Below, in pieces: positions 1,602-33,746 of a DNA stretch of 64,000 bases. The notes beneath the pieces are model-generated. The model worked only from the letters and a program-made list of their open reading frames with translations. It did not search any database and was not told where the DNA came from. Position 1 is the stretch's first letter. Each line of letters opens with the position of its first letter. Source of the DNA: Gammaproteobacteria bacterium (lineage in GTDB: Bacteria > Pseudomonadota > Gammaproteobacteria > Pseudomonadales > Porticoccaceae); the NCBI GenBank assembly GCA_016191205.1, contig JACPPB010000074.1, positions 1 through 64,000 on the forward strand. Reading direction: 5' to 3'. Position numbers and translations under genes: made by a program.

Positions 1602-2825
1602 ATGGCCAAACGACACGTCCTCGACGGCGTGCGCGTGCTCGATTTCTCGCAGCACGTCGCCGGCCCCGCCTGCACCCGCATGATGGCGGAGATGGGCGCC
1701 GAAATAATCAAGCTCGAACTGGCGCCCTTCGGCGAGCAGATCCGCAACGTGGGCTTCAAGGTCAACGGCCGCGGGGTTTATTTCATCCAGCAGAATCGCG
1801 GCAAGAAAAGCGTCTGCGTGGACATGAAATCCGCCGCCGGGCTGGCGCTCATCCACGATCTGGTCAAGCAGGTGGACGTGGTGATCGAGAACTTCGCCCC
1901 CGGCGCGATTCGTCGCCTCGGCCTGCCCTGGGAGACAGTCCGCGAACTCAATCCCAAGGCCATCATGTGCTCGATCTCGACTTTTGGTCAGGACGGGCCG
2001 TTGGCCGGGCTGCCCGGCTATGACTTCATCGGCCAGGCCTACGCGGGCATCACCGGCATGATCGGCGACCAGGAGAACGGTCCCTACATCCCCATCGCCG
2101 CGCTCGGCGACACCACCACCGGCGCCCACGCGCTGGCCGCGATCAACGCCGCGCTGTATCACCGCGCCACCTCGGGGGACGGCGGCCAGTATCTCGACAT
2201 CTCGCTGCTCGACTGCTATTTCCACAGCCACGAAATGAACGTCGGCGCCATCAGCGCCAGCCAGGGCGCGATCAATCCCTACCTGCCCGGCCGCTACCAT
2301 CAGGCGGTGGCGCCGCTCGGGGTGTACAAGAGCAAGGACGGCTACCTGATCCTGATCGCAATCCTGGGCCGCTGGAAGGACTTCTGTAATGCCATCGGCC
2401 GGCCGGAACTCGCCACCGATCCGCGCTACATCGACGACCCGGCCCGGGTCGCCCATCACGCCGAACTCAAGGTGCTGATCGAGGACTGGCTGCAAGCCCA
2501 GGAGAGCGACGCCGCCACCATCCGCCTGCTCGGCGAGCATCATGTGCCGGTGGCACCGATCCTCTCCATCCAGCAGGTGATGAACCACCCCCACATGAAA
2601 TACCGCGGCACCGTGCGCACCATCACCGACCGCGGCGCCGGCAGCTTCGAGATGCCCGGCATGCCGCTGCGGTTTTCGGCCTTCGCCAACGACCTCGACC
2701 TGCAGGCGCCCTATCTGGGCGAGCACAACGGCGCGGTGCTGGGCGGCCTGCTCGGCCTCTCGGCGCAGCGCATCGCCGCGCTCACCGCGGACGGCGTGCT
2801 GGTCAGCGAGCCGGTTCCAACCTGA
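1602..2825 (+). CDS. CaiB/BaiF family (class III) CoA transferase
   Basis: A 407-residue protein matching family III CoA-transferases (formyl-CoA transferase, CaiB, BaiF), which move CoA between carboxylic acids through an aspartyl-CoA thioester. The N-terminal Rossmann part (LDGVRVLDFSQHVAGP, MGAEIIKLE) is typical. Asp170 in the ALGDTTTG motif is the expected catalytic aspartate, and the helical FNAL-type linker and GxYHxVAP region follow. Length is normal. The start has an AAGGAG site 8 bases upstream. The acid substrate cannot be read from the sequence. A carboxymuconolactone-decarboxylase-like gene lies convergently downstream. Confidence 0.92.
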   Translation: MAKRHVLDGVRVLDFSQHVAGPACTRMMAEMGAEIIKLELAPFGEQIRNVGFKVNGRGVYFIQQNRGKKSVCVDMKSAAGLALIHDLVKQVDVVIENFAPGAIRRLGLPWETVRELNPKAIMCSISTFGQDGPLAGLPGYDFIGQAYAGITGMIGDQENGPYIPIAALGDTTTGAHALAAINAALYHRATSGDGGQYLDISLLDCYFHSHEMNVGAISASQGAINPYLPGRYHQAVAPLGVYKSKDGYLILIAILGRWKDFCNAIGRPELATDPRYIDDPARVAHHAELKVLIEDWLQAQESDAATIRLLGEHHVPVAPILSIQQVMNHPHMKYRGTVRTITDRGAGSFEMPGMPLRFSAFANDLDLQAPYLGEHNGAVLGGLLGLSAQRIAALTADGVLVSEPVPT

Positions 2826-2845
2826 CCCGGCTCGCGACGCGGGAG

Positions 2846-3397
2846 TCAGAAACCCTTGACGCCCGCGTCGAGCTGCACGCCGAACGAATTCAGCGCCATC
2901 GACACCAGGTGGTACTGACCCACCGCGAATACCACATCCATCATCTGCAGATCGTCGTAACGCGCGGCCAGGGTTTTCCAGGTCGCGTCGCCGATGCAGG
3001 AATCGCGATGCAGTTCATCGGCGGCGCGCAGCAGTGCCGCCTCGAACGGCGTCCAGCCCGGCGCGTCCGGCCCCGCCTTGATACGCGCGATCTCGACATC
3101 CGTAAGGCCGGCTTCGCGCGCGAAGATCACATGCTGACCCCATTCGTACTCGGCCTGGCACAACCAGCCCACGCGCAGAATGAGAATTTCGCGCTCGCGC
3201 GGCGCGATGCGCGACGTCTCCCCCATCACATGATAGGCCCAGACCGTGAATTTCTGCGCCGCGTCCCAGTGCCGGGACAGGGTGCCCAGCACGTTGTAGA
3301 ACGGCTGCGAGGCCTTGATCGGCGCCAGCACCTTGCGCTGCTCCGCGCTCCATTCGCTCTCGGCCAGGGGTGGGATACGGGGTTGGGAAAGTTTCAT
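2846..3397 (-). CDS. Carboxymuconolactone decarboxylase-like (CMD family) protein
   Basis: An all-helical protein of 183 residues with the CMD/AhpD-like core: SREWEI-type stretch (APREREILILRVGWLCQAEYEW) followed by GQHVIFAREAGLTDVEI. AhpD peroxidase members need a CxxC; only one Cys is present in this segment, so a peroxidase role is unlikely and a decarboxylase or lyase role, or an unknown one, is more probable. The start at 3395-3397 is supported by a GGAG site 8 bases upstream. The gene runs towards the CoA-transferase gene, with only 20 bases between the stops. Confidence 0.82.
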   Translation of the reverse strand: MKLSQPRIPPLAESEWSAEQRKVLAPIKASQPFYNVLGTLSRHWDAAQKFTVWAYHVMGETSRIAPREREILILRVGWLCQAEYEWGQHVIFAREAGLTDVEIARIKAGPDAPGWTPFEAALLRAADELHRDSCIGDATWKTLAARYDDLQMMDVVFAVGQYHLVSMALNSFGVQLDAGVKGF

Positions 3398-27684: not shown

Positions 27685-27991
27685 GCGAGGTAGCCCAACC
27701 AGAGCAGATCGATTCCCAGCGCCTCGCGGTACAAAAAAACAGCGGTGCACTCCTGGCCTGATTCCGCGTGGAAGCCGACACCTCGCCGACTACCGCGAGA
27801 TGCGTCAGAAACGTTTCGATCTCGGTCGCGCCCATGTCGCGCGGGTGGCGCTTGGAGTGGAACAGGACAAACCGCCGCTCCCAATCAGCGCAGGTGTCCT
27901 CGATGCGGATCCTGTAATTCAGCCGCCGGATGCGGGTGCGCACCTTGTCGAGCAGCTTTGACGCGTTCGGGTGTGTTGCCATGTTTGACAT
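27685..27991 (-). pseudogene. Integron-type integrase remnant (N-terminal part, frameshifted)
   Basis: The minus-strand frame starting at 27991 or 27982 encodes the SAM-like N-terminal domain of an IntI-type tyrosine recombinase: KLLDKVRTRIRRLNYRIRIEDTCADWERRFVLFHSKRHPRDMG and TEIETFLTHLAVVGEVSASTRNQA. Near 27750 the match moves to another frame (AVFLYREALGIDLLWLG), a frameshift. Sequence similarity ends near 27685, so the whole catalytic domain (R-H-R-Y) is missing. The gene points away from the cassettes at 28.1 kb, which is the standard integron layout. The rest of the gap 27638-27684 holds a copy of the repeat also found at 13145. Confidence 0.8.
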
Positions 27992-28081
27992 GGCGGCAAG
28001 CTACTGTGTAGCCTCGATCCGGGAAATAGCAGGCGCCCACGAGGTGCAATACAAGACGCCTTTTGGGGTGTCTAATTATAG

Positions 28082-28088
28082 GTTGGGT
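28082..28088 (+). other. attI-like recombination core
   Basis: GTTGGGT fits the integrase core GTTRRRY exactly. It lies between the integrase remnant and the first cassette ORF, where an attI site is expected. The first cassette begins after the G, 12-18 bases before the ATG at 28101. Confidence 0.55.
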
Positions 28089-28100
28089 GCGCAAAACTCC

Positions 28101-28643
28101 ATGACTGATACCAAGAGTTCCTGGGAAAAATTTCTTCATCCAGAAACCTTGCGGGGCAATCTGATCGCGATTGCTCTATTTATATCGGCATTCGAAATGT
28201 TCAAAGACCGTGTTATTGAAAAGCCGGAAACGTTCTTTTCAAACGGCTTCGATCAAAACGGACTTATTGTCGATGAGAAGTACAAAACTGAAGTACTGTC
28301 AAAATCGAAAAGTCGGCTTTATGCATCGTTGCTGTGGTTCAAAGAAATGGAAGCAATCGATGACAAGGATATAGAATCATTCGACATCATTCGAAAATAC
28401 AGAAACGAAGTAACGCATGAGCTGACAGATTTCTTATCAAACGCTAATCGCAATCTCGATCCAACAGCTTTCCAAAGGCTTATTGCTCTACTGTCCAAGA
28501 TTGAGAAATGGTGGCTCATCAATTTTGAAATGGCAATTAACCCGGAAATGCTGCCTGACTCTGTGAACGTTGATGATGTAATACCGGGTCCTATATGGAG
28601 TCTCCAGTTAATGCTGGATATAGCGTTGGGAAATGAGCCATAA
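28101..28643 (+). CDS. Cassette 1: unknown protein with a HEPN-like RNxxxH motif
   Basis: A protein of 180 residues from AT-rich DNA. I do not recognise the family by name. It is helical, with RKYRNEVTHE at about 99-108: R101-N-x3-H106 is the R-N-x3-H motif of HEPN ribonucleases found in abortive-infection and toxin systems. A Trp-rich helix (IEKWWLINFEM) follows. No signal peptide; one moderately hydrophobic helix (IAIALFISAFEMF). Hardly any ribosome-binding site is seen, as is common for first cassette genes. It is followed 36 bases later by an attC site. A nuclease role is inference from one motif. Confidence 0.6.
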   Translation: MTDTKSSWEKFLHPETLRGNLIAIALFISAFEMFKDRVIEKPETFFSNGFDQNGLIVDEKYKTEVLSKSKSRLYASLLWFKEMEAIDDKDIESFDIIRKYRNEVTHELTDFLSNANRNLDPTAFQRLIALLSKIEKWWLINFEMAINPEMLPDSVNVDDVIPGPIWSLQLMLDIALGNEP

Positions 28644-28679
28644 GAAGGGTATTACTACAATGCGCTCAAAGAGAAGCGC

Positions 28680-28760
28680 ACCTAACAACGCCATCAACGC
28701 GGACTCGCAAAAGCGGCGCTTCGCGCCCCTTTTGCTCGCCGGTTATGGCGAACGTTAGCC
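28680..28760 (+). other. attC site of cassette 1
   Basis: It starts with ACCTAAC (RYYYAAC) and ends with GTTAGCC (GTTRRRY with one mismatch). Between them are complementary arms (AACGCCAT with ATGGCGAACGTT; GCAAAAG with CTTTTGC) and a terminal GGCGC/GCGCC stem, giving the imperfect folded hairpin expected of an attC. Length 81 bases. Confidence 0.8.
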
Positions 28761-28774
28761 ATTCAGAGAGCATT

Positions 28775-29635
28775 ATGAGCACTGCCACAATTTCAGAACC
28801 AATCTCTGGTGACAAGGCATATCAGGTACGTGCCCGCGCTGCGCTCCCCTTGCTTGTTCGGCAAGCACAGGCTGGCGCCCCCGTGTTCTATTCCGATCTC
28901 GCTGAAGAGTTGGGAATGCCCAATCCGCGCAATCTCAACTATGTGCTCGGAAGCATCGGGCGATCTCTGGAACTTCTCTCGAAGGCATGGAAGGCTAAGG
29001 TTCCACCGATTCAATGTCTTGTTGTCAATAAAAGCACCGGTTTACCTGGAGAGGGTATCGGTTTGTTTCTTGTAAAGAAAGAAGATTTCGCAGCGCTACC
29101 GCTTCGACAGAAACGAGCAATCGTTGAGGCAAAACTTCAGCATGTTTTCTCTTATCCCCGATGGGGAGAAGTCCTCAAAGCTCTTGCACTTGAACCAACA
29201 ACGTCCGACTTTTCGCCCATAGTTACAAAAGCCACTGGGGGCTTCGGCGGGGGTGAGAGCGAGGATCACAAAGCACTCAAAGAGTATGTCGCGCGGAATC
29301 CGAAAGCCATCGGGCTTAATTCAAACACTCAGGCCGGCGTCACTGAATATCCATTGCCGTCTGGCGACAGCCTAGATGTTTCGTTCAACGGCAAAGCCGT
29401 TTGGGTAGCTGCGGAGGTTAAGTCTGCTATATCGGCGGAAGCTGACATTGTCAGAGGCCTATTTCAATGCGTTAAGTACCGCGCTGTAATGGAGGCAGTA
29501 CTGCTCACCGAAGCGCGTCCACAAAACGCAAGAGCATTACTTGTGCTGGAATCGGTGTTCCCACAATCACTTATACCGCTGAGAAACACTCTCGGTGTTG
29601 AGGTGGTTGAAAGCATCACGCCGAAAGACGGCTAA
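28775..29635 (+). CDS. Cassette 2: unknown protein with PD-(D/E)xK nuclease-like C-terminus
   Basis: A protein of 286 residues. The first 130 residues look like a winged-helix or specificity module (APVFYSDLAEELGMPNPRNLNYVLGSIGRSLELL; LVVNKSTGLPGEG). The C-terminal part has the order of a restriction-type nuclease core: Glu-rich helix EDHKALKEYV (163-172), Asp201 in DSLDVSF, Glu214-x-Lys216 in VAAEVKS, then a helix with Gln231 and Lys234. The ATG at 28775 is preferred; an earlier in-frame ATG at 28745 lies inside the attC. It is bounded by attC sites on both sides, so it is a mobile gene cassette. A DNA-defence role is plausible but not shown. Confidence 0.65.
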   Translation: MSTATISEPISGDKAYQVRARAALPLLVRQAQAGAPVFYSDLAEELGMPNPRNLNYVLGSIGRSLELLSKAWKAKVPPIQCLVVNKSTGLPGEGIGLFLVKKEDFAALPLRQKRAIVEAKLQHVFSYPRWGEVLKALALEPTTSDFSPIVTKATGGFGGGESEDHKALKEYVARNPKAIGLNSNTQAGVTEYPLPSGDSLDVSFNGKAVWVAAEVKSAISAEADIVRGLFQCVKYRAVMEAVLLTEARPQNARALLVLESVFPQSLIPLRNTLGVEVVESITPKDG

Positions 29636-29692
29636 CATGGCGTTCGAGAGGGACGCGCCAAAAGCGGCGCGCCCCTCAACTCTACGTTAGAC
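29630..29692 (+). other. attC site of cassette 2
   Basis: The site runs from GGCTAAC (one mismatch to RYYYAAC) to GTTAGAC (perfect GTTRRRY). The middle holds CGCGCC/GGCGCG and GAGAGGG/CCCCTC complementary arms around an AAAAGC loop. At 63 bases it is short but normal. It overlaps the last codons of the cassette 2 gene. Confidence 0.75.
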
Positions 29693-29722
29693 GCCGGAGT
29701 GACCGCGCGAAGGAGAAGGCCG

Positions 29723-30364
29723 ATGTTCGCAACACTACTCGGAACGAACCGGGGAACCGAAGACCACAGGACGCTCTGCGCCAGCCTGAGCCAGCTCGCG
29801 GTCGGGAAGGGGTTCGCGCCGCCTGACACGACACTCCGCATCCGAGCGGACCAGACACCCCTGGACGGTTGGAAGCTTGAACAGCGCGGGCCTGCTGACA
29901 CAAACGCCGACTTCCTGCTTGCTGTGACGGCGCCGAAGGTACCGGGCATCTCCCCCATGCCGGTCAAAAAGACGGTTACCGGGCCCCTGTTCTCAGTGGT
30001 CGTCATGCCGGACTTTTTCGGAGTCTGGCGGGACGATCGCCGCGACTATTCCGAGTTCAAGGAGACCGCCCAAGTGATGGAAGCGTTTGTCGGGTTCCTT
30101 GGCTCCCTTGAACCCAAAACGACCGACATGGCGCCGGACGAGTTCAGCCTGTACATCGACTCTCTGTTCCTCGGAAGAATCGCGTGTTCGGGTTGCGGGT
30201 TGGAGTTTTCCCTTGGAGCCCGTCCGGTGCAAGACGACGCGACGTGGGCCGCTTCCGTCGCGCGCGAAGCGATTGAGGGTGGCTGGCGACTCAAGACCGG
30301 GGAAGGTTCCAAGCCCATCTGTCCGCGCTGTGCCAAAGGAAGCTCTGATTATTTCGCACGATAG
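29723..30364 (+). CDS. Cassette 3: unknown zinc-ribbon protein
   Basis: A protein of 213 residues starting at an ATG with a clear AAGGAG site. The family is not recognised. The C-terminal quarter has two Cys pairs, C155-SG-C158 and C200-PR-C203, consistent with a zinc ribbon. The middle region is mixed alpha/beta with FSVVVMPDFFGVW. No membrane segment. It follows the cassette 2 attC by 30 bases, but no attC was found after it; instead an IS5-type fragment begins at 30408, so the end of this cassette was probably lost. Confidence 0.55.
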   Translation: MFATLLGTNRGTEDHRTLCASLSQLAVGKGFAPPDTTLRIRADQTPLDGWKLEQRGPADTNADFLLAVTAPKVPGISPMPVKKTVTGPLFSVVVMPDFFGVWRDDRRDYSEFKETAQVMEAFVGFLGSLEPKTTDMAPDEFSLYIDSLFLGRIACSGCGLEFSLGARPVQDDATWAASVAREAIEGGWRLKTGEGSKPICPRCAKGSSDYFAR

Positions 30365-30407: not shown

Positions 30408-30458
30408 ATGCGGCAACAAACCTTTGCTGAGGAAAGTTTCGAGAAATTTCGCAAGAGA
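30408..30458 (+). pseudogene. 5' fragment of an IS5-type transposase gene
   Basis: The frame from ATG 30408 reads MRQQTFAEESFEKFRKR, the well-conserved N-terminus of many IS5-group transposases. It then runs straight into a tandem GGACATAGGGGTCAAA repeat. No further transposase sequence or terminal repeats are visible, so this is a small remnant. Confidence 0.5.
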
Positions 30459-30541
30459 GGACATAGGGGTCAAAGGACATAGGGGTCAAAGGACATAGGG
30501 GTCAAAAGGACATAGGGGTCAAGTCTCTCTTTGTAACACTC
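30459..30541 (+). repeat. Tandem REP-like repeat, four 16-base units
   Basis: GGACATAGGGGTCAAA is repeated at 30459, 30475, 30491 and 30508 (last unit ends in AAG), then TCTCTCTTTGTAACAC. The block ATAGGGGTCAAGTCTCT plus TTGTAACA recurs at 34665-34693 directly upstream of the RAYT gene, linking this array to that transposase. The remaining gap to 30747 shows no gene. Confidence 0.75.
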
Positions 30542-32273: not shown

Positions 32274-33746
32274 ATGGAACCACGGGCTCGCTGGCATACC
32301 ACCTACTGGCTGTTGGCGCTGATGGCGCTGCTGTTTCTGCAAAGCTGGTGGCAGCAGAGCCAGCAACTGGAGCTGGTGCCGTACAGCGAATTCGAGCAGG
32401 CGCTGGCCGACGGCCGCATCGTCGAAGTCACCATCGCCGATCGCACCCTCACCGGGCGTTTGGCGGCGCCCGACAGCAACGGCAAAAAGGCGCTGGTCGC
32501 CACCCGTGTGGAGCCCGACCTCGTCGCGCGCCTCGACCGCTTCAAGGTGCCCTACTCCCGGGTGATCGAGAGCACCTTCCTGCGCGATCTGATGTCGTGG
32601 ATCGTACCGGTGCTGGTCTTCGCCGCCATCTGGCTGTTCGTGGTGCGCCGCCTCGCCGAACGCCAGCAGGGCATGGGCGGCTTCATGAGCGTCGGCAAGA
32701 GTCGCGCCAAGATCTATGTGGAAAAGGACACCGGCGTCACCTTCGCCGATGTCGCCGGCGTGGACGAGGCCAAGGGCGAACTTCAGGAAGTCGTGGGCTT
32801 TCTGAAAACGCCCGGCGACTACGGCCGCCTGGGCGCGCGCATTCCCAAGGGCGTGCTGCTGGTGGGACCGCCCGGCACCGGCAAGACGCTGCTGGCGCGC
32901 GCCGTCGCCGGCGAGGCCGGGGTACCCTTCTTCTCCATCTCCGGCTCCGAGTTCGTCGAAATGTTCGTGGGCGTCGGTGCCGCGCGGGTGCGCGACCTGT
33001 TCGAGCAGGCGCGGCAGCGCGCCCCCGCCCTCATCGAAGCGGCGCTGGCCGCCACCCGCCGCGGCGGCACCGACATCGGACTGGCGGACTTCACCACCGC
33101 CATCGAACGCATCGTCGCCGGGCTCGAAAAGAAAAGTCGCGTGCTCAACCCGCGCGAGCGCGACGTCATTGCCCACCACGAAATGGGCCACGCACTGGTG
33201 GCGCTGTCGCTGCCCGGCACCGACCCGGTGCACAAGGTGTCGATCATTCCGCGCGGCATCGGCGCGCTCGGCTACACCATCCAGCGCCCCACCGAAGACC
33301 GCTACCTGATGAGCCGCGCCGAACTGGAACACAAGATCGCGGTGCTCATGGGCGGGCGCGCGGCGGAGCATCTGGTGTTCGGCGAACTGTCCACCGGCGC
33401 CGCCGACGATCTCGCCAAGGCCACCGACATCGCCCACGACATGATCACCCGCTACGGCATGGACGAAGCACTGGGCTTCGTCGTCTACGACGCCCAGCCC
33501 CAGCGCTTTCTGGATACCCCCATGGGCCCCCCGCCCAGCGGCTGCCAGATCAGCGAAGCGACCCAGGGCCGCATCGACGCCGCGGTGCGCGATATCGTGA
33601 TGACCGCCTTCCACCGCGCCGAAGCCATCCTCGGCGGCAACCGGGAGATTCTCGAACGGGGCGCGCAGGAATTGCTGGTGCGGGAGACGCTGGATGAAAT
33701 GGCGTTGAAGGAGCTTACGAAGGAGTTGCGGCATGAAGTGGGGTGA
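32274..33746 (+). CDS. ftsH: FtsH-like membrane metalloprotease with internal deletion in the AAA domain
   Basis: A protein of 490 residues; FtsH is usually 610-650. Two N-terminal membrane helices (11-23, 108-124) flank the periplasmic domain, then comes the AAA module with Walker A GPPGTGKT (198-205) and pore motif [30 protein letters not shown]. At residue 252 the sequence jumps in frame to [12 protein letters not shown], which lies well after the AAA core in normal FtsH. Walker B, sensor 1, the second region of homology and arginine fingers (about 150 residues) are therefore absent. The peptidase domain is complete: zinc motif HEMGH (302-306) and the downstream Asp ligand region [16 protein letters not shown]-driven unfolding should be lost. 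A genuine deletion or an assembly artefact are both possible. Confidence 0.9.

Follow-up and report, generated by a model that had tools for sequence, protein, structure and literature searches.

What does a lone gene in an integron gene cassette do, and is it a defence gene? The question is raised by a gene at positions 28775-29635 (forward strand) of the window, the 64,000-nucleotide stretch of DNA from a member of the Porticoccaceae that was analysed here, which an earlier note had described as the second cassette of an array, encoding a winged-helix-like region followed by a nuclease core of the restriction fold. Here, we set out the reading that this gene is a single-gene mobile defence nuclease, in which an alkyltransferase-like (ATL-like) domain that reads DNA modification is joined to a PD-(D/E)xK cutter, a reading to which we give a probability of about one half, and weigh it against other functions that the same architecture could serve.

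The cassette setting held up, with attC sites on both sides of the gene and, upstream on the opposite strand, what is left of intI, the gene for the integron integrase. The remnant (27734-27955, minus strand), recognized from TIGR02249 and NF011946 matches and from its reading frames, corresponds to TIGR02249 positions 1-74 of 315 and scores below the cut-off of that model because the gene is truncated, a point absent from the earlier note. Some 35 further intI codons can be traced in another frame, with unrelated sequence beyond them, so that in place of the intact intI in cis that marks a complete integron only the initial part of the gene is kept. Across the genome no complete integron integrase was found, only two N-terminus fragments, the one described here and another at G000:C6:119413-119649. 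A candidate attI recombination point (GTTGGGT, 28082-28088, forward strand), read from the sequence alone, lies 5' of the first cassette. The attC between cassettes 1 and 2 (CCTAAC ... GTTAGCC, 28681-28760, forward strand), identified by its inverted repeats and fold, has a bottom strand that folds at -27.7 kcal/mol (z -5.2 against shuffled sequence), and the attC of cassette 2 (GGCTAAC ... GTTAGAC, 29630-29692, forward strand) folds likewise on its bottom strand (z -4.3 against shuffled sequence) and overlaps the gene, whose TAA stop codon falls within the R'' box (GGCTAAC). Cassette 2 is thus an integron gene cassette in the usual sense, a single open reading frame between attC sites. A scan of 27900-29800 gave no sigma-70-like promoter, and Rfam returned nothing relevant in the integron region.

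Cassette 1 (28101-28643, forward strand) is possibly another defence-type cassette. Its product of 180 residues is HEPN/DUF4145-like by weak Pfam matches, both below their cut-offs (DUF4145, E 0.007; HEPN_Cthe2314, E 0.03). The protein also carries an RNEVTH motif; motifs of this R-x4-H form are typical of HEPN RNases.

That cassette 2 holds a coding gene is certain, since its dN/dS against close relatives is 0.035-0.070 (pairs with unsaturated dS). The open reading frame begins with an ATG at 28775 and ends with a stop codon at 29633-29635, encoding 286 residues; although there is another in-frame ATG at 28745, relatives share both the length of this protein and its MSTA start at 28775. A sequence search of the PDB with the protein and two profiles gave chance matches only.

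The C-terminal half of the protein is the better defined, and the evidence that it has a PD-(D/E)xK nuclease fold, drawn from sequence conservation and structure prediction, is strong. Residues ~160-286 (29252-29632, forward strand) align with the C-terminal nuclease domains of the EndoMS/NucS endonucleases (5gke, Z 13.0, rmsd 2.5 over 111 residues; 2vld, Z 12.8; both by VIA-align), with lower-ranking structures scoring clearly less and being mostly other PD-(D/E)xK proteins. The earlier note had placed D201, E214-x-K216 and Q231 in the order and spacing of a restriction-fold nuclease and had staked its claim on a restriction-fold core being present in a structure model; the core is there, in a full-length model of medium confidence (mean pLDDT 70), and the residues, correctly numbered from 28775, are in the order D...(D/E)xK expected of the superfamily. 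All four belong to a set of 12 that are invariant in 14 of 14 family members (E161, H165, S196, D198, D201, E214, K216, D224, R227, Q231, K234 and Y235), a set that comprises intact members only and reaches down to ~26% identity. Catalytically deficient forms of SisEndoMS were made by mutation of D159, E173 and K175 (PMC7736090), residues with a spacing of 14 and 2 where the cassette 2 protein has 13 and 2. The likeness to EndoMS/NucS extends over ~110 residues; the two show no significant sequence match, the aligned part of the cassette 2 protein starts at residue 162, and the model of its N-terminal half matches a different fold. A protein that had lost its catalytic function and kept the fold as a relic might be suspected in an array whose integrase is dead and whose gene has pseudogene relatives, a suspicion made very improbable by catalytic residues that are all invariant across ~26-88% identity and by a dN/dS of ~0.05.

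The N-terminal half, for which a winged-helix-like region had been proposed, can be described more closely as resembling the DNA-binding fold of the alkyltransferases (MGMT and OGT) and of the ATL proteins. This module (residues ~13-141, 28811-29197, forward strand) was delimited from a model together with structure and profile matches; when residues 1-141 were modelled separately with 13 diverse sequences, the prediction reached a pLDDT of 89 and a pTM of 0.85 and supported the winged-helix-like reading. The best 18 of 18 structural alignments of the module were all to MGMT, OGT or ATL proteins, with Z of only 5.0-6.5, and the top 31 Foldseek rows were again all MGMT, OGT or ATL, with weak E-values above 0.2. 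As Z values of 5-6.5 can reflect merely a common arrangement of elements, profiles were compared as well: the module matched an MGMT/ATL profile at E 2.4e-5, against 0.18 for MarR and 0.28 for DpnI_C, with MarR against MGMT at E 0.01 as a control, the MGMT/ATL profile having been built from 25 sequences from relatives of the host and the DpnI_C and MarR controls from 4 sequences each, which makes them weaker. A MarR-type assignment was set aside on that E of 0.18 with its 4-sequence control, and so was a winged helix of the DpnI type (PF17726), for which there was no Pfam match and an hhalign probability of 0.2-0.3% against the 4-sequence DpnI_C profile.

Individual residues qualify the resemblance. 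The alignment pairs the invariant Y39 with the tyrosine conserved in the helix-turn-helix of MGMT; R52 falls on the helix arginine with which MGMT flips bases, and is kept in the nearer branch of the family only, not being conserved in the distant one. In place of the PCHR motif of MGMT or the PWHR motif of ATL proteins, the module has P, L or H after P77; C81 varies, no cysteine is conserved, and the nucleophile is missing. PF01035, which describes the MGMT DNA-binding domain, does not recognize the cassette 2 protein and reaches one homologue at E 0.1 only. The module, whose predicted fold over residues 8-126 is like that of the PF01035 domain and which shares its helix-turn-helix tyrosine, is thus at best a relative by fold, not a family member, because both motifs are absent; it also differs from the ATL proteins in being fused to a nuclease, a fusion for which a literature search taking in few subscription papers gave no precedent. 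On sequence and model together, we hold with moderate confidence that the N-terminal domain is an ATL-like reader.

Since the nearest folds of both halves belong to DNA-repair proteins, the protein might instead be a repair endonuclease, its ATL-like domain finding alkylated or damaged bases and its EndoMS/NucS-like domain incising host DNA there, and one distant homologue does lie a few kb from a Vsr gene and a Dcm-type methylase gene. A housekeeping repair gene would scarcely be expected to show so patchy a distribution (a homologue is present in 4 of 298 other genomes in a sample of the phylum), to move in cassettes and prophages, to be frameshifted so often or to keep defence genes as neighbours, and we regard this explanation as unlikely.

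The reader half also occurs apart from the PD-(D/E)xK domain. Four loci of the HNH or standalone kind came to light with a profile of the N-terminal module. This module is fused to HNH-type nucleases at L027, L059, L060 and L061 and forms short standalone proteins at L048 and L062, with a profile match between the PD-(D/E)xK-linked modules and the HNH-linked or standalone group at E 1e-15. A long frame at L056, seemingly a fusion, was left out because its N-terminal part reads as non-coding sequence, and viral contigs queried with one HNH protein yielded no relatives of the HNH-fused kind. Both Rhizobium and Alloyangia have the module as a gene of its own, immediately ahead of an annotated exonuclease gene. 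Module-only genes at L022:12552-12884 and L047:5803-6477 directly precede annotated exonucleases (UvrD-helicase/3'-5' exonuclease, RNase_T) and possibly form with them a two-gene system built on the same reader.

Such exchange of partners has a parallel among type IV enzymes, where winged-helix readers of the DpnI type are combined variously with PD-(D/E)xK or HNH nucleases, as in DpnI, FcyTI, Psp4BI and HhiV4I (PMC11037411). The plan of the cassette 2 protein is the same, a small winged-helix reader plus a nuclease, but its reader is of another type than DpnI_C and is placed N-terminally, ahead of the PD-(D/E)xK domain.

Full-length relatives at 77-88% identity are spread over Rhodoferax, another betaproteobacterium, Pseudomonas, Pseudidiomarina, Halomonas, Acidithiobacillus, a member of the Desulfuromonadaceae and Geobacter, and several of them (L003, L004, L005, L010, L011 and L014) occupy cassette arrays where the upstream or downstream attC sites clearly differ, so that the same gene is found in other arrays next to other attC sites. 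In the Acidithiobacillus locus (L011), the attC after the gene is near-identical to that at 29630-29692. Neither the phage records nor the E. coli genomes searched contained a counterpart, in the first case a homologue and in the second similar DNA. The gene is frameshifted at 4 of the 13 close-relative loci (L010, L011, L012 and L014), as would be expected if it were costly to its host, and one distant relative adjoins AbiD. Both observations would suit abortive infection, in which the nuclease, triggered on infection, would destroy host and phage DNA alike; with no sensor or partner gene encoded alongside, and with frameshifts common in cassette arrays anyway, we consider this improbable.

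Plasmids, genomes and viral contigs all yielded more distant relatives, at ~26-60% identity, with phage-defence islands and prophages among their settings. Homologues in prophages adjoin tape-measure and tail-tube genes, and another lies downstream of a gene for a Ppl-like ATPase. In three genomes, a distant homologue is encoded between a restriction helicase subunit of the BPTD_3080 family and a type III adenine methyltransferase, that is, inside type III restriction-modification (RM) operons with a Res subunit of NF046055, and one of these lies in an island with Shedu. In Rhodovastum, the gene for a protein with the N-terminal module is the second one downstream of a gene for a DNA methyltransferase. 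At a further locus, L070 (G732:C58, ~1772-3302), two homologues stand in tandem, the second broken by a stop codon.

These operons raise the alternative that the protein is a conventional restriction nuclease, specific for a sequence or a structure, or that it serves an RM system as the nuclease subunit; a methyltransferase encoded elsewhere would then protect its target, the cassette form borrowing or avoiding the methylation of its host. Both the three operons and the Rhodovastum arrangement speak for such a role. The cassette 2 gene, on the other hand, is alone in its cassette, and a methyltransferase-free cassette under purifying selection in several bacterial classes could work in this way only if all its hosts had identical protective methylation; most of the sampled BPTD_3080 systems, moreover, have no homologue. 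A BPTD_3080 gene is adjoined by one in only 1 of the 13 sampled genomes that carry it, which rules out a fixed subunit of these systems, and the association is real but optional. We judge the conventional restriction role to be fairly unlikely for the cassette gene.

We return, then, to the single-gene defence nuclease, a reading suggested by the company that the relatives keep in RM operons, beside defence genes, in prophages and in mobile cassettes; the family is probably an undescribed one of this kind. In operation, the ATL-like domain, having no nucleophile, would scan DNA and bind a modified or damaged base, possibly flipping it out, and the PD-(D/E)xK domain would cut the DNA nearby with metal ions held by D201 and E214, together with K216. 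Self and non-self would be told apart by the protein itself, as a lone cassette works in hosts with differing methylation and without a partner methyltransferase; as the cassette brings no methyltransferase with it, discrimination would rest on a modification carried by the incoming phage or plasmid DNA, the logic of type IV restriction. On this indirect argument, and on the likeness of the reader half to domains that recognize altered bases, the nuclease is probably modification- or lesion-dependent and type IV-like. In cassette 2 the partner methyltransferase is indeed absent, as in type IV systems, although a methyltransferase does accompany the distant homologues in RM operons, which are more in keeping with conventional RM than with modification dependence. 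We infer the substrate and the anti-phage role of the protein, and likewise cleavage, modification dependence, base flipping and phage restriction.

Known readers in modification-dependent restriction form a limited set, namely domains of the PUA superfamily (SRA and EVE), DpnI-type winged helices and sulfur-binding domains. While the architecture of nuclease plus reader and the type IV logic are known already, the type of reader, the family and its life in cassettes appear to be undescribed in the literature and libraries examined. An alkyltransferase-type reader, if true, would suggest that bacteria restrict bases beyond the range of the known readers, and would be a testable reagent for detecting such bases. 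A wider proposal, which we advance tentatively and think doubtful, is that the ATL-like module without an alkyl-accepting cysteine is an undescribed and widely shared bacterial defence sensor, used with PD-(D/E)xK or HNH nucleases or with exonucleases, defining a new class of restriction against modified bases (perhaps guanine modified at O6, or bulky bases of phages) that has spread as integron cassettes. Integrons of both kinds, mobile and chromosomal, were reported in 2025 to carry anti-phage genes. With the present gene, the cassette pool gains a single-gene defence candidate, in a place where searches of defence islands miss such genes. None of the four family libraries consulted (Pfam, NCBIfam, PADLOC and PHROGs) has a match or a model for the 286-residue protein.

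Beyond the second attC, an open reading frame at 29699-30364 is GC-rich, has pairs of cysteines near its end and gives a weak match to PHROG 21667; it may not be a cassette, as no third attC was seen downstream of it. Just past this frame, at 30456-30522, a unit of 16-17 bases (AAAGGACATAGGGGTCAA) occurs four times in a head-to-tail row. Further along, at 32274-33746, lies an FtsH-like open reading frame of 490 residues in which a stretch within the AAA domain is seemingly missing, with RQRAP at the site, when it is set against ordinary FtsH.
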